Assembly: GCF_002925905.1 (NCBI RefSeq)
Contig: NZ_PRDB01000001.1
Span: 744,001 to 808,000, forward strand
Source: Klebsiella michiganensis
GTDB lineage: Bacteria; Pseudomonadota; Gammaproteobacteria; Enterobacterales; Enterobacteriaceae
Direction: 5' to 3'
DNA length: 64,000 bases
Part shown: in pieces, positions 35,551 through 41,712 of the stretch
Numbering within the stretch: the stretch's first letter is position 1
How the letters are laid out: each line of letters begins with the position of its first letter
Program-made: the position numbers and the translations under genes
The notes under the pieces: generated by a model
What the model saw: the letters and a program-made list of their open reading frames with translations, nothing else
Database searches by the model: none
What the model was told of the DNA's origin: nothing

Positions 35551-35757
35551 ATGAAAATTTTCCAACGCTACAACCCGCTACAAGTAGCGAAGTACGTGAA
35601 GATCCTGTTCCGTGGACGTTTGTATATCAAGGACGTTGGCGCTTTTGAGTTTGATAAGGGCAAAATCCTTATCCCGAAGGTTAAGGACAAGCTGCATTTG
35701 TCAGTGATGTCTGAAGTCAACCGCCAGGTGAGCCGTCTGCAAACAGAGATGGCATAA
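35551..35757 (+). CDS. ytfK: Stringent-response modulator YtfK (SatS)
   Basis: 68 residues, the E. coli length with only a few substitutions. It is a small basic cytosolic protein ([20 protein letters not shown]). In E. coli, YtfK promotes SpoT-dependent (p)ppGpp accumulation under phosphate and fatty-acid starvation; this is transferred by homology. GGCAGGAG precedes the ATG. It is isolated between ytfJ and the inserted sugar operon. Confidence 0.93.
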
Positions 35758-35783: not shown

Positions 35784-35809
35784 AAAAAGGCGGCTCCCTA
35801 AGGGAGCCG
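35784..35809. terminator. Bidirectional terminator between ytfK and the GH42 operon
   Basis: The stem CGGCTCCC/GGGAGCCG (35791-35798, 35802-35809) has a three-base loop. On the minus strand it is followed by CCTTTTTACC, a good terminator for the AraC-GH42-permease operon. On the plus strand the T-tract is weak (TTGATGTTT). Confidence 0.75.
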
Positions 35810-35824
35810 TTGATGTTTCTGGAC

Positions 35825-36697
35825 CTATCCCTTCATTTCCGCATAGCGTTTACGGTACTCTCCCGGGGGAATGCCGTTATGTTTACGGAAAATGCGCGTG
35901 AAATAGACCGGGTCTCCGTAACCTACCGACAGGGCGATTTTGTTAAGCGGCAGGGAGGTGCTCTGGATCAGCCACCTCGCGCGGTTGATGCGCTGCGCCT
36001 CGCGCCAGGCGTAAACCGTTTGCCCCAGCTCATTTTTGAACAAATGCGCCAGCCGCGAAGGGGAGAGAAAAACCATCGCCGCCAGGGTCTCGATCTTCAT
36101 CTCCTGGGCAATATGTTCGTTAAGATAGTCGCACACCGCGTTAATCCGCGGGTCGTGGGCGTGGCGGTTGCTGATCGGCTGTCGCTGAAAGCAGTTCAGG
36201 ATCAGGCGCTCCAGCGCATTCATCGCCAGCGCCTCCGACAGCGGGGCGGAAGCGGAGTGGTGGCGGATAACTTCATAGAACAGATCGCGCAGACTCTGCA
36301 GCTGCTCAGGATCGTTGACCGTGGTTTTACCAATGCCGTGGGTCGTTTGATCCCATTTTAGCCAGTCTATCCAGTAGGGCCGGGGGATGAAGTAGATCCA
36401 TAAATGATCCCAGTATTCGCTGTGTTCGTCCCGTCCGTAATGGTGCGGAACGCCGGGCGGGAAGAGCAGCAGATCGTTTTCACGACACAGAAGGGAGCCG
36501 TCTCCCGCTTTCGCGCGCGCCTGGCCGCGAAGCGTCAGATTGATGATGTAACCTTTCATCCCCTGCGGGCGGTTTATGTAGTAGTCCAGCTTTGAGCCGC
36601 GGGTGATGGGGGTAAAGCCGGCGACGACCCAGGCGTTGAAGGTAAAGGTCTTCATCAATGGCGAGAAGTTCAGTAGCTCATTGATATCCAGTTCCAT
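35825..36697 (-). CDS. AraC-like regulator of the GH42/permease operon
   Basis: 290 residues, close to true AraC in length and layout: an N-terminal arm, sugar cupin (about 20-170) and two helix-turn-helix motifs (IETLAAMVFLSPSRLAHLFKNEL and LNKIALSVGYGDPVYFTRIF). Residues equivalent to the arabinose contacts of AraC are kept at a constant +5 offset: Thr29, Arg43, Tyr87, His98, Trp100 for Thr24, Arg38, Tyr82, His93, Trp95. The effector is therefore probably L-arabinose or a close pyranose. It is the last gene of a minus-strand run, 30 bases after the GH42 gene. The comparison was by eye from memory of AraC. Confidence 0.88.
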   Translation of the reverse strand: MELDINELLNFSPLMKTFTFNAWVVAGFTPITRGSKLDYYINRPQGMKGYIINLTLRGQARAKAGDGSLLCRENDLLLFPPGVPHHYGRDEHSEYWDHLWIYFIPRPYWIDWLKWDQTTHGIGKTTVNDPEQLQSLRDLFYEVIRHHSASAPLSEALAMNALERLILNCFQRQPISNRHAHDPRINAVCDYLNEHIAQEMKIETLAAMVFLSPSRLAHLFKNELGQTVYAWREAQRINRARWLIQSTSLPLNKIALSVGYGDPVYFTRIFRKHNGIPPGEYRKRYAEMKG

Positions 36698-36727
36698 CGT
36701 TTCTCCCGCCCGAGCGCCGCCGCCCGC

Positions 36728-38737
36728 TTAACTTTCGATGATAGTAAATTCCCATGCTTTGAGGCGCAACGGCTGGCCGCAGCTAACTTTTTCCCCGCTC
36801 AACAGCGCGTTGCCCGATGTCTCGCTGATAAACGCCTGCGGTTCGCCGGAGTAGTTGAACAGGAAGTGGATGCTGTTGCCGTCGCGGTTGCGCATCTTTT
36901 TGACCACCAGCGGATAGCGGTAGGCCGATGTACGTGAACGCAGATCCAGTCCTGCGGTCAGCCGATCGAACAGCTGGCTAATCAGCGTTTTCTGCGGCAG
37001 GAAGCCAACGTAAATCGCCCGACCCTGAGCGTAATCCGCCTCGGTGGCGGCGGCATAGTCGCCCCATGCCGGATGCTGATAGCGCAGTAGCGTACGGGTA
37101 CCGGCGTCCGGCGTCAGCAGCTCCATCCACAGCTCGGCCTGATTGTCTTGACGGCAATCAATGTCAGCGCTGCAGGCGCTTACCGTGGTTTCTTCCGGCA
37201 GGGTGAATTGACTGTAGCTCACGCCGCAGCTCTCGCGCAAAATTCCCGGCTGCGCGCCGCTGCGCACCTTCACGTTTTCATCGCTAAAGCCTGATTTAAA
37301 GCCGATCAGCGCTCTGCCGCCCTGCTCAATATAGCGGTTGATGCGCGTCAGCAGGCCATCATCGGCGGCGTAGAGTCCGGGTACGATCAGCGCGCGGTAG
37401 CGCGCGGTTTCCTCGTTAACGTCGTGGATAATATCGAGGCTGATATTGTGGTCGTACAGCGCATCGTGGAAGCGGCGGAAAATATCGTTATAAATATTGC
37501 CCTGCGCGTCGCCGGGACGGAACTGGTTAAGGGCGTCCATCGCCTCATTGCTTATCAGCAGCGCGACGTCGTTTTCTGCCTTCAGCTCCGCCAGCTGTGG
37601 CGACAGGCGGGAAAAGTCAGCCCCGATAGTGGTGGCCTCCTGCCAGGTCGCGTTGCGTGAGAAGTCGTGGCTTAACAGCCCCTTCCAGTAGGTCTCGAAC
37701 GCGTTATGAATCGAATGCCAGTGCCAGTAAGAGACCATTGCCGCCCCCGATGCCACGTGGCTAAAAGCCTGCAGGCGCAGCTGGCCCGGATAAGGTGTCC
37801 ACTGGGCAAAGCCCTGCGCCTGGGTTTCCAGCACGAAGTAATTCTTACCCTGCTTTAGCGAACGCGTAATGGCGCCGCCAAACGCGATTTCTCGCCCGGT
37901 CAGGTGTTTCTGGCTCGGATGATAGATATCGACTCCGGCAATATCCAGCGTCTGCGCCGCCGCAAAATGGTCAACTCGCGGCTGCACGCCGTAGGAGTAG
38001 CCGCGCCATTCAAAATCGAAGTTGTGGGTGACGAACTGATGCGGCTGGGCATATTCGCGCACGATCTCCGCCTGCCAGGCGAGATACTCCGTCACCTGCT
38101 GGCGCTGGTAGCGGGAGAACGCGCAGGCGAGGCTGGCGTTGATAGTGTTTTCGACCGGCGGAAAATCCTGCCAGCTATCGATGCGGTTGCTCCAGTAGTC
38201 CAGACCAAAATCGTTATTCAACCGGTCAAGGTCGGGGTATTTTTCCTGCAGGCTGCGTACAAAACCCTCCTGCATATGGCGGCCGATATTATCGTAATGC
38301 TTGGTTTCGTTATCCAGCTGCCAGCCAATAATCGCCGGATGGTGCTGCACGTGCGCCATTAGCGTACGGATAATCTTTTCGGCATAGCGGCGAAAGGTCG
38401 GGTTGACGATATCCATAATCTGGCGCGGGCCATATTTTTGCTGCCCGTTGACGGTAGTGACCAGAATATCCGGGTGCTTCGCCGCCAGCCAGGCCGGGAC
38501 GGCGTAGGTTGGCGTGCCGATAATCACCGCGATCCCCGCTTTATGCATGGCATTCAGCACCCGGTCGATATGGTAGAAGTTATATTCGCCCTCCCGGGGC
38601 TCCAGCGTACTCCAGGTCGATTCGGCAATCCGCACCACGTTAATGCCCGTTTCCTGCATTAAGGCGATATCTTTCGCCAGCCGATCTTCCGGCATATATT
38701 CATCGTAATAGGCCACGCCATAAAATAAATCAGACAT
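36728..38737 (-). CDS. GH42 glycosidase (beta-galactosidase or alpha-L-arabinopyranosidase)
   Basis: 669 residues, the normal GH42 length; no signal peptide, so cytosolic. An N-terminal TIM barrel (about 1-380), a class-I-amidotransferase-like trimerisation domain (about 385-600) and a small C-terminal beta domain follow in order. The acid/base Glu144 is in IIGWQLDNETKH and the nucleophile Glu304 in YFVLETQAQGF. The Trp-rich SYWHWHSIHNAFETYWKGLL stretch is typical. AAGGAGG precedes the ATG. It lies 18 bases after the LacY-like permease gene, so it should hydrolyse what that permease imports. GH42 members cleave beta-D-galactosides and, in some cases, alpha-L-arabinopyranosides. Confidence 0.93.
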   Translation of the reverse strand: MSDLFYGVAYYDEYMPEDRLAKDIALMQETGINVVRIAESTWSTLEPREGEYNFYHIDRVLNAMHKAGIAVIIGTPTYAVPAWLAAKHPDILVTTVNGQQKYGPRQIMDIVNPTFRRYAEKIIRTLMAHVQHHPAIIGWQLDNETKHYDNIGRHMQEGFVRSLQEKYPDLDRLNNDFGLDYWSNRIDSWQDFPPVENTINASLACAFSRYQRQQVTEYLAWQAEIVREYAQPHQFVTHNFDFEWRGYSYGVQPRVDHFAAAQTLDIAGVDIYHPSQKHLTGREIAFGGAITRSLKQGKNYFVLETQAQGFAQWTPYPGQLRLQAFSHVASGAAMVSYWHWHSIHNAFETYWKGLLSHDFSRNATWQEATTIGADFSRLSPQLAELKAENDVALLISNEAMDALNQFRPGDAQGNIYNDIFRRFHDALYDHNISLDIIHDVNEETARYRALIVPGLYAADDGLLTRINRYIEQGGRALIGFKSGFSDENVKVRSGAQPGILRESCGVSYSQFTLPEETTVSACSADIDCRQDNQAELWMELLTPDAGTRTLLRYQHPAWGDYAAATEADYAQGRAIYVGFLPQKTLISQLFDRLTAGLDLRSRTSAYRYPLVVKKMRNRDGNSIHFLFNYSGEPQAFISETSGNALLSGEKVSCGQPLRLKAWEFTIIES

Positions 38738-38755
38738 ACAGGTTACCTCCTTAAA

Positions 38756-39988
38756 TTAATGCGCGGGCGCCGGCTGCGGGGCAAAAGCGCGCGCTTTGTC
38801 CAGCGTAATAAATGAAATCAGCGTAAAGCACAGGGCGATACCGCCGAGCACGATATAGCTGCTGGTAAAGCCCATGCTCTGGTACATATGACCGATGCCG
38901 GTAGAAAGGAAAATAGAGCTAAAGCTTTTCGAAAACTGGAAGCCGATTAAATAAACCGTGGCCGAAAGCAGCGGGTTGAAGTTGGCAGTAATATATTTCA
39001 GCGCGGCGACGAGTAATACCGAGCTCTCAAAACCGTGCAGCAGTTTAATCAGGCTAATGGACACCGGACCGATAGCCCAGGCCGAGCCGATAATGCGCAG
39101 ACTCATAATCATTCCGCAGTACAGCAGAGCATTTTTCGGGCCGATTTTATTCACGAACCATGGGGCGAAAAACATCACTACCGCATCAAGGAAAATCTGA
39201 CCTGTGGTTAAATAGCCGAAGACTTCCGCGCCGCGCGCTTTGCTCTCAAAGAAGTGGCTGTAATAGATGGCGAACTGCTGGTCGTAGGTTTCATATACCG
39301 CGCCGACGCCGATCGTGTAGATCGCGAAGAACCAGAATTTCTTCATTTTCAGCAGCGAGGTGGCGTCGCTCAGGGTGACCGGCGAGGCTTTACTGCTGTG
39401 TATCGCGCCTTGTTTATTCGCGCTAATCTGCATTTTCCAGACAATGACCAGCAGGCATACGCCGGCACCGCTGGCCAGCCAGAAAATCATGTTCTGGTCG
39501 ATCCCGTAGAGCTTGCCTGCCGCGAAGGTGCCGATAGCCGCGCCAATGCCGCCAAACATTCTGGCGCGACCAAACTCAAAACCGGAAGCGCGGCTGACTT
39601 TATCAATGTAAGCTTCGCAAATACCGCAGCCTGCGCCGTAGGCCATGCCAATATAGATGCCGCCCGCCAGCGCCCCGAGAAAAACGTTAACTTTTAATAA
39701 TGGCGCAAAGACGTAGATCCAGTAGGGGGCAAAGAGGGTAATAATGATGGCCAGCAGCCACATCAGGTTTTTACGATAGACCAGCCTGTCGGATATAAAA
39801 CCGAATAGTGGTTGAACGCAAACGGCAATAATCGCGGTAAAGGAATAAACCAGACCGACGTCAGTGTAATTAATGCCGATGGTTTCCGTTAACCACAATG
39901 ATAAATAAGGATAGCAGCATCCCCAGCCAATAAAGAAGAACAGGAAGAACAGACAGCTTATATAGTAGTTTTTATTTGATTCTATCAT
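38756..39988 (-). CDS. LacY-family oligosaccharide:proton symporter
   Basis: 410 residues, 12 membrane segments, clearly of the LacY/RafB/CscB group (FEFGRARMFG, YDQQFA, KNALLYCGMIMSLRIIGSAW). Proton-coupling residues of LacY are kept: Arg298 (R302), His318 (H322), Glu321 (E325), with Lys315 (K319). Sugar-site Glu125 (E126) and Arg143 (R144) are kept as well. Two galactopyranoside-recognition residues are not: LacY Trp151 aligns with Ala150 and Glu269 with Ile265. The substrate may thus differ from lactose. First gene of the permease-GH42-araC run. Alignment is by eye. Confidence 0.9.
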   Translation of the reverse strand: MIESNKNYYISCLFFLFFFIGWGCCYPYLSLWLTETIGINYTDVGLVYSFTAIIAVCVQPLFGFISDRLVYRKNLMWLLAIIITLFAPYWIYVFAPLLKVNVFLGALAGGIYIGMAYGAGCGICEAYIDKVSRASGFEFGRARMFGGIGAAIGTFAAGKLYGIDQNMIFWLASGAGVCLLVIVWKMQISANKQGAIHSSKASPVTLSDATSLLKMKKFWFFAIYTIGVGAVYETYDQQFAIYYSHFFESKARGAEVFGYLTTGQIFLDAVVMFFAPWFVNKIGPKNALLYCGMIMSLRIIGSAWAIGPVSISLIKLLHGFESSVLLVAALKYITANFNPLLSATVYLIGFQFSKSFSSIFLSTGIGHMYQSMGFTSSYIVLGGIALCFTLISFITLDKARAFAPQPAPAH

Positions 39989-40084
39989 GATAACCCTCGC
40001 TTCCTTTATTCAGGAATATGATCGTGTAGACGCGAGCAAAGTTACCTTTTTGCGCAGAGGGGAGTCATGAACGTTTCGCTGTGG

Positions 40085-40101
40085 AGCAGTAAAAATCTGC
40101 T
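40085..40101 (-). promoter_or_regulatory. Candidate operator upstream of the GH42 operon
   Basis: AGCAG and CTGCT flank TAAAAAT, giving a 17-base palindrome about 100 bases upstream of the permease start. On the minus strand it reads TAGCAGATTTTTACTGC, which recalls the TAGC-T-rich start of AraC half-sites, though the spacing is not that of araI. A weak candidate only. Confidence 0.3.
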
Positions 40102-40137
40102 ATTGCCCGAGGGGCGTGAGCAGCCTCACATTCGGAC

Positions 40138-40166
40138 AATAAAAAAGGCGGATTTTCATCCGCCTT
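40138..40166 (-). terminator. Terminator of ytfL (minus strand)
   Basis: The perfect 9-bp stem AAGGCGGAT/ATCCGCCTT (40145-40153, 40158-40166) has a 4-base loop. A-run 40139-40146 reads as a T-tract on the minus strand. It lies 18 bases after the ytfL stop. Confidence 0.88.
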
Positions 40167-40184
40167 GTCGGTTCGTCAACGGTT

Positions 40185-41528
40185 TTACGCTGACTCTTTA
40201 TCGCTGTTGGCCGCATCCGGCAGCTTGGGCACCAGCACCGTCGGCTTATTGTCGATACGGGTCACCAGCAGCTGATCGATGCGGTAGTTGTCGATATCCA
40301 CCACTTCGAACTTATAGCCGGAGAATTTCACCGCGTCGGTGCGCTTGGGAATTTTACGCAGCATAAACATCATAAAGCCGCCGATGGTCTCGTAATTGCC
40401 GGACTGCGGGAAATCATCGATATCCAGCACCCGCATCACGTCGTCGATCGGCGTTCCGCCGTCAATGAGCCAGGAGTTTTCATCGCGCGCGACGATCTGC
40501 TCTTCCAGCCCCTGGCCGACGAGGTCGCCCATCAGGGTGGTCATCACGTCGTTCAGGGTGATAATCCCGACCACCAGCGCATATTCGTTCATGATCACGG
40601 CGAAGTCTTCACCGGCGGTTTTAAAGCTTTCCAGCGCTTCAGACAGCGTCAGGGTATCCGGGACAATCAGCGTATTGCGAATCTGCACGCCGCCGGTCAG
40701 CACCAGACTCTGGTTTGCCAGCACGCGGTTCAGCAGGTCTTTGGAATCAACGTAGCCGATGATGTGGTCGATATCTTCATTACAGACCAGGAACTTGGAG
40801 TGCGGATGCTCCGCGACCTTATTCTTCAGGCTCTGTTCATCTTCGTGAAGATCGAACCAGATGACGTTTTCACGCGAGGTCATCGATGAAGGCACGGTGC
40901 GCGATTCCAGTTCGAACACGTTCTCAATCAGCTCATGCTCCTGCTTACGCAGCACCCCTGCCAGCGCGCCGGCTTCCACCACGGCGTAAATATCATCGGA
41001 GGTAATGTCGTCTTTACGCACCATCGGAATTTTGAACAGGCGGAAGATATTGTTGGCCATGCCGTTAAACAACCACACCAGCGGGCGGAAGAGAAACAGG
41101 CAGAAGCGCATCGGGTTGATGATGCGTAAAGCGACGGCTTCAGGCGCGATCATACCGATGCGTTTCGGAGTCAGGTCAGCAAACAGAATGAACAGGCTGG
41201 TGACCAGGGTAAAGGAGATAATAAAGCTCAGCTGCTCGGAGAGCTCCGGGGACATATAGCGGCTAAAGAGACTATTAAACGCCGGCGAAAATGCCGCATC
41301 GCCGACGATACCGCCGAGAATCGCTACCGCGTTGAGGCCGATTTGCACCACGGTAAAGAACATCCCGGGGTTTTCCTGCATCTTCAGCACGCGTTGAGCG
41401 TTGATGTTGCCGTCATCGGCCAGCAGCTTGAGTTTGATTTTACGTGATGCGGCCAGCGAGATTTCCGATATCGAAAAGAACGCACTGACGGCTATCAGAC
41501 AAAGTATTACTAAAATACTGTTTAACAT
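40185..41528 (-). CDS. ytfL: CNNM/CorC-family inner-membrane protein YtfL (PaeA)
   Basis: 447 residues, the E. coli length. An N-terminal DUF21/CNNM transmembrane domain (about 1-190) with VVQIGLNAVAILGGIVGDAAF and ILFADLTPKRIGM is followed by two CBS motifs (about 215-330) and a CorC_HlyC C-terminal domain. Homologues in Salmonella/E. coli have been described as cadaverine/putrescine exporters (PaeA). The start has only a weak ribosome-binding site (AAGAT), as in relatives. Confidence 0.94.
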   Translation of the reverse strand: MLNSILVILCLIAVSAFFSISEISLAASRKIKLKLLADDGNINAQRVLKMQENPGMFFTVVQIGLNAVAILGGIVGDAAFSPAFNSLFSRYMSPELSEQLSFIISFTLVTSLFILFADLTPKRIGMIAPEAVALRIINPMRFCLFLFRPLVWLFNGMANNIFRLFKIPMVRKDDITSDDIYAVVEAGALAGVLRKQEHELIENVFELESRTVPSSMTSRENVIWFDLHEDEQSLKNKVAEHPHSKFLVCNEDIDHIIGYVDSKDLLNRVLANQSLVLTGGVQIRNTLIVPDTLTLSEALESFKTAGEDFAVIMNEYALVVGIITLNDVMTTLMGDLVGQGLEEQIVARDENSWLIDGGTPIDDVMRVLDIDDFPQSGNYETIGGFMMFMLRKIPKRTDAVKFSGYKFEVVDIDNYRIDQLLVTRIDNKPTVLVPKLPDAANSDKESA

Positions 41529-41712
41529 ATCTTATCTGACCGTTGAGATCAGATCCTCGGAAGGGAAGTGGATAACGCTAAGTGGAATTCACAAAAAGCC
41601 GGTCCGAAGGCTCTGGACCGGCGATAGCACGGCGTAGTATAGCGTAAGGTACTGTAAAGCCGCCAGAGCGTAAATTATTCAATCCGGCGGCCTGCCCTAC
41701 GGTGCAGCCGCA

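Follow-up and report, generated by a model that had tools for sequence, protein, structure and literature searches.

A predicted alpha-L-arabinopyranoside operon with its own AraC paralogue and an araBAD-like promoter in Klebsiella michiganensis and other Enterobacterales

The arabinose regulator AraC of E. coli is encoded by a gene transcribed divergently from araBAD, and its arabinose contacts are taken to be Thr24, Arg38, Tyr82, His93 and Trp95; two recognition helices bind its DNA sites. Individual residues of the lactose permease LacY have assigned functional roles, and LacY-type symporters carry disaccharide-sized sugars. The mechanism by which AraC acts through the half-sites I1 and I2 is described in the available text of PMC6018408. 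Among GH42 enzymes, BlArap42B from Bifidobacterium animalis subsp. lactis (structure 5xb7) is an alpha-L-arabinopyranosidase, in which the His that binds the C6-OH of the sugar in beta-galactosidases is replaced by Trp358, filling that space; the enzyme releases arabinopyranose (Arap) from ginsenoside Rb2 and similar plant glycosides (PMC8106489).

The stretch of DNA analyzed here, referred to as the window, comprises 64,000 nucleotides of Klebsiella michiganensis (contig NZ_PRDB01000001.1, positions 744,001 to 808,000) from a genome of 6.19 Mb. The sequence itself shows the genes and their families, the residues of the active site and the pocket, the layout of the promoter and the conservation; the features concerned are as follows (positions are those of the window):

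40114..40132, minus strand: CRP-like site, TGTGA-N6-TCACG, by consensus match
40086..40102, minus strand: araI1-like AraC half-site TAGCAGATTTTTACTGC, first copy of a YAGCR repeat
40065..40081, minus strand: araI2-like AraC half-site CAGCGAAACGTTCATGA, 21 bp from the first and overlapping the expected -35
38756..39988, minus strand: LacY-family proton/sugar symporter, 410 aa
36728..38737, minus strand: GH42 enzyme, predicted alpha-L-arabinopyranosidase, 669 aa, catalytic Glu144 and Glu304
37685..37687, minus strand: codon of GH42 Trp351, aligned with Trp358 of BlArap42B
35825..36697, minus strand: AraC paralogue, 290 aa, model NF007860, arabinose pocket intact and second helix-turn-helix changed
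35784..35811, minus strand: terminator-like hairpin and T run, by eye, 3' of the regulator towards the convergent ytfK

The operon consists of three co-directional genes, in the order permease, GH42 enzyme and AraC-like regulator, separated by gaps of 18 and 30 bases and preceded by Shine-Dalgarno-like stretches recognized by eye. It is flanked by ytfK (start at 35551, plus strand) and ytfL (41528..40185), and the arrangement agrees with the coordinates of the original prediction. That prediction had also stated that E. coli has no genes at this junction, which accords with strain PapM-32-1, the single E. coli junction viewed, where paeA(ytfL) adjoins ytfK, and with a megablast search of the whole operon (roughly at least 85% identity), which found nothing among 20,395 records of E. 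coli. Within the genus of the window, the permease adjoins ytfL in 10 of 20 genomes (the present one included); in the other 10, ytfL and ytfK are separated by 54 to 278 bases. The genes flanking the operon on both sides are those found in E. coli and K. pneumoniae records. Because these flanking genes are conserved and the operon is present or absent at the ytfL-ytfK junction across the genus, it looks like a cassette acquired or lost at one place. A mobile island was considered and set aside, given E. coli- and K. pneumoniae-like flanks and the 10 versus 10 distribution at the junction.

The GH42 enzyme exceeds the cut-offs of both Pfam models of the family, PF02449 (catalytic, 275.2 bits) and PF08532 (trimerization, 104.6 bits). 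When compared with solved structures, it matched 5xb7 best by a wide score (663.8 bits, the next being 192), with 47.8% identity over the aligned row (307 of 642 columns). BlArap42B and the window enzyme have in common both catalytic glutamates, which the original prediction had reported and which the alignment places at Glu144 and Glu304, as well as the tryptophan that blocks the C6 position. The comparison with characterized members proposed at that time gave an alpha-L-arabinopyranosidase as the closest structure, with its specificity tryptophan present. This residue separates the family: Trp occupies the C6 position in all 96 distinct rows above 45% identity (103 in total, two of which are the window's own gene, so that the window copy is included), and His occupies it in all 13 distinct rows below 40% identity (14 in total, including the other GH42 of the same genome). 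Both catalytic glutamates are present in every row compared; rows with less than 90% query coverage, among them that of the split L133 gene as well as weak partial matches, were excluded. A tree built from 34 chosen rows places 5xb7 and the window enzyme on one side of a 100/100 branch and the two beta-galactosidase rows on the other; the root serves for drawing only, and the tree tool flagged long rows, 5xb7 among them, as unsure. On these residues and relationships, the window enzyme is predicted to be an alpha-L-arabinopyranosidase in which the space for the C6-OH would be blocked. Unlike BlArap42B, whose activity is described, the window enzyme has a predicted activity, occurs in Enterobacterales and shares its operon with a permease of the LacY family and a paralogue of AraC.

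The host's other full-length GH42 (C5:131524) belongs to the same family and also has the catalytic glutamates, but it is only 25.7% identical and carries His at the C6 position. Its gene adjoins those of a maltoporin and of a protein resembling the galactooligosaccharide-binding GanS (509.7 bits, below the cut-off of 700). Mixed specificity of the window enzyme may be possible by analogy, because another GH42 enzyme, which shares 66% identity with a beta-galactosidase from B. circulans, is termed a beta-galactosidase/alpha-L-arabinopyranosidase in PMC10673005.

The permease belongs to the LacY symporter family, with 43% identity to E. coli LacY and a score above the cut-off of the galactoside permease model. 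Its proton machinery, which the original prediction had reported as kept, is indeed conserved: Y236, D240, R302, K319, H322 and E325 (LacY numbering) are present in 27 of 27 distinct permease rows, and E126 and R144 are also retained. Meanwhile, the same 27 rows share the changes W151A, E269I, N272D, A122C, C148G, M23W and D237E, so that the galactoside-site positions W151, E269 and N272 are occupied by Ala, Ile and Asp throughout. The host encodes five other LacY-family permeases (L127 to L131), all of which keep W151, with two lacking E269 and N272; judged by these residues, W151 is the one position whose loss sets the operon group apart from the host's other LacY-family permeases. One of the five, L129, is 99% identical to E. 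coli LacY. From its residues, the operon permease is a LacY-family symporter with a sugar site unlike that of the lactose permease, and it is not classed here as a galactoside permease.

The regulator scores 427.8 bits against the AraC equivalog model NF007860 (cut-off 208), is 41% identical to E. coli AraC, and is labeled AraC in public records of its relatives. The original prediction had noted that five arabinose contacts of AraC recur in this protein at a constant offset of +5. Alignment with E. coli AraC, which it had also suggested, agrees: Thr29, Arg43, Tyr87, His98 and Trp100 fall on the contact positions, and all five are invariant in 35 of 35 distinct regulator rows, three of which are canonical-type AraC. 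The equivalent of AraC Pro8 is present in 32 of the 35 rows and gapped in three shorter ones, and that of His80 in 34 of 35. The host possesses a separate araBAD-araC locus with a canonical AraC at C4:1149895, and in a 30-row tree, from which five near-copies were omitted, the operon regulators separate from the three canonical AraC proteins. Unlike E. coli AraC, the paralogue is encoded by the last gene of the operon that it presumably controls, and its second helix-turn-helix is changed.

The region upstream of the permease appears to copy the CRP-I1-I2 layout of the araBAD promoter, which makes the sites listed above candidate AraC and CRP sites. To examine conservation, we collected 30 upstream regions, namely that of the window and that of each permease row above 60% identity on the plus strand of its locus. 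A direct repeat of the form YAGCR-N16-YAGCR, spaced by exactly 21 bp, occurs in 29 of the 30; these correspond to 25 distinct site regions, and because some rows are related to one another, fewer separate events lie behind the count than it implies. Other spacings in the range 10 to 32 were each found in 0 to 3 regions, and dinucleotide shuffles gave the repeat in 0.185 of 30 regions on average, or 0.005 of 30 when an upstream TCAC was also required. In those 29 regions, a CRP-like palindrome that matches 8 to 10 of 10 consensus letters begins 28 or 29 bases upstream of the repeat; it was chosen as the closest match to the consensus within 60 bases and scored without a control of its own. The layout is retained in the divergent loci L044 to L053, which have other surroundings. 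In the thirtieth region (G007), the site is present but stands farther from the gene, owing to an insert of roughly 250 bases. This insert, between promoter and permease (L167, about 2700-2950), has TATACCC/GGGTATA ends and looks ERIC- or MITE-like by eye. Five further upstream regions, viewed by eye and outside the count, contain degenerate sites (L116, L117 and L136) or no clear repeat (L059 and L024).

The E. coli araBAD promoter has the same order and spacing of elements, with a CRP-like site counted at 29 bases before the repeat, and the host's own araBAD promoter shares the layout of a CRP-like site and 21-bp repeat. The TGAC found by the -35 region of E. coli araBAD also stands, by eye, at the equivalent place in the window promoter. 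A stricter form of the site, written from that of the window, occurs once in the genome, at this position, and its reversed control not at all. When positions 38501-41600 of the window were scanned with a half-site matrix for a distal operator of the kind used in looping repression, no good distal half-site appeared: the two sites scored 29.0 and 27.9 and the best other matches 6.0 and 8.9, although the matrix was derived from the strong sites and a weak distal site could be missed.

The first recognition helix of the regulator, which reads SPSRL.HLF in most rows, has changed little, as has the TAGC box. In the second helix, the three canonical-type rows and L050 to L053 retain Gln258 of E. 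coli; the first half-site of these four loci ends in TTCATA or TTCATG, compared with TCCATA in E. coli. In the other 28 regulator rows this position is Pro or Ala (Pro263 in the window), and the half-site ends seen among them include TCTATG, TACAGG, TACTGC and similar; in the window the second half of I1 is TACTGC, against TCCATA in E. coli. This correlation, which covers few lineages, suggests a joint change of regulator helix and half-site and, with it, insulation from the canonical AraC.

Taken as a whole, these features very probably describe an inducible operon for small alpha-L-arabinopyranosides under the control of a local AraC and CRP. We infer substrate, inducer, activation and feedback from the sequence as follows. 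The LacY-family symporter would import a disaccharide-sized glycoside ending in alpha-L-arabinopyranose, for which vicianose (Arap-(1-6)-Glc) and an Arap-capped galacto-oligosaccharide from pectic galactan are candidates. Inside the cell, the GH42 enzyme would cleave off L-arabinose, with the side chain of Trp351 occupying the space of the galactose C6-OH, and the free sugar would enter the host's own AraBAD pathway. L-arabinose would also bind the AraC paralogue of the operon, which together with CRP-cAMP may activate the promoter from the two adjacent half-sites, in the manner of AraC at araBAD. Activation would be self-reinforcing, unlike that of E. coli araC, because the regulator gene is the last of its own operon. 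As for the source of such compounds in plants, vicianosides are a plausible one. Arap ends of pectic galactan are a plausible source as well; GALS1 adds such ends, with the linkage unstated in the available text of PMC6646851. A more specific form of this proposal carries slightly better than even confidence, namely that the operon embodies a second, insulated arabinose switch: an AraC paralogue reading the same sugar with shifted DNA specificity, a positive loop, possibly no looping operator, and a re-specialized permease.

The original prediction had left two substrates open, an arabinopyranoside and an arabino- or galacto-oligosaccharide. The arabinopyranoside reading gains from the closest structure, the C6 tryptophan, the AraC pocket and the araBAD-like promoter, while a galacto-oligosaccharide appears less likely because the enzyme probably has no room for a C6-OH and because W151, E269 and N272 are missing from the permease. 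Beyond that prediction, the present analysis adds the promoter, the tryptophan at the C6 position, the altered sugar site of the permease and the conserved linkage of GH42 and AraC. An accessory beta-galactoside operon, with a GH42 enzyme acting mainly as a beta-galactosidase and a paralogue answering a galactose-like sugar, would fit the annotation of the enzyme as beta-galactosidase in public records (plasmid records included) and the score of the permease against the galactoside model. It is nevertheless quite improbable, as the enzyme carries Trp at the C6 position in place of His, all 27 permeases have Ala for W151 whereas the host's five other LacY-family permeases keep this residue, the arabinose pocket of the regulator is unchanged, and the host already possesses a GH42 of the His type as well as a permease with 99% identity to LacY. 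The beta-galactosidase reading was therefore set aside on the C6 tryptophan and the changed permease, and retained as a rival.

The remaining alternatives concern the regulator and the exact substrate. Control by the canonical AraC is suggested by the TAGC box and 21-bp spacing, which are those of araBAD sites, and the local paralogue would then be redundant, or else tuned to the intact glycoside instead of free arabinose, since the identity of the pocket is compatible with a slightly larger ligand. We regard this as unlikely: the second half of I1 and the residue at Gln258 are both changed in the window lineage, rows that keep the glutamine (L050 to L053) retain TTCATA or TTCATG, and the paralogue occurs in 20 of 20 loci (L034 to L053) whatever their surroundings. 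A variant of the favored explanation, with an aryl or triterpene arabinopyranoside as natural substrate in place of a free disaccharide, is rather unlikely. LacY-type symporters take disaccharide-sized sugars, and no additional gene of the operon encodes an outer-membrane or secreted partner; on the other side, BlArap42B frees arabinopyranose from plant glycosides such as ginsenoside Rb2, according to the available part of PMC8106489.

If the arabinopyranoside reading is true, genes annotated as "beta-galactosidase" and second araC genes would together mark a route for plant arabinopyranosides in Klebsiella, Raoultella, Rahnella, Erwinia and relatives, and an annotated araC need not mark araBAD. 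The operon would also provide two natural AraC switches that share an inducer and apparently use different DNA sites, a model for the insulation of paralogues, as well as a natural LacY relative without the galactoside-stacking tryptophan. The parts are known, and we infer that their combination, a second arabinose-type switch for arabinopyranosides in Enterobacterales, is new; no description of the operon was found in the titles or shown abstracts among the literature matches listed, which does not prove its absence from print.

The distribution of the genes was followed by a contig scan, which confirmed 319 relatives, of which 80 were kept for locus comparison. The nearest named relative of the GH42 enzyme among the loci kept is from Klebsiella grimontii (97%). 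The order permease-GH42-regulator is identical in all of the best 20 of the 80 (L034 to L053, all Enterobacterales), with the operon at ytfL in some and at other sites in others; in other genera it sits elsewhere in the genome, away from this junction. Among the 60 lower-ranked loci, 59 (L054 to L113 without L059) have no regulator of at least 130 bits in the DNA fetched, and L076 has a weaker AraC relative (30%). Since most lower-ranked loci are without it, the GH42 clade does not need this regulator. Three Erwinia and Pantoea plasmids carry the GH42 gene followed by a GPH symporter and an AraC gene, and K. spallanzanii (L059, 7001-11460) has a second GH42 copy (60%) with an AraC paralogue (51%) and an MFS_1 gene downstream. 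GH42 and AraC thus stay linked while the transporter varies (LacY-family, GPH or MFS_1). In Klebsiella sp. BIGb0407 (L038, 3281-12112), a gene encoding FGGY-kinase domains is located upstream of the operon, which is directly followed by genes for a canonical-type AraC (75% to E. coli) and an MFS protein. The arabinose isomerase gene araA was found in 5 of 5 genomes queried.

Several related arrangements were also observed. As in L059, a second GH42 (60%) is accompanied by an AraC paralogue (51%) in three further genus members (L024, L025 and L026), and two loci (L014 and L027, in genomes G008 and G017) hold yet another GH42 (about 49%) next to a GPH symporter. In the case of Brenneria roseae (L070, 3410-9007), a GH42 gene (55%) stands beside those of a GH1 enzyme and a LamB-type porin, with no AraC match at that locus. 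Two K. pneumoniae records in the plasmid collection carry the operon and look chromosomal, namely NZ_CP129856.1 (5.37 Mb) and CP125156.1 (550 kb), the latter with the operon amid tamAB, msrA, ytfL and cysQ.
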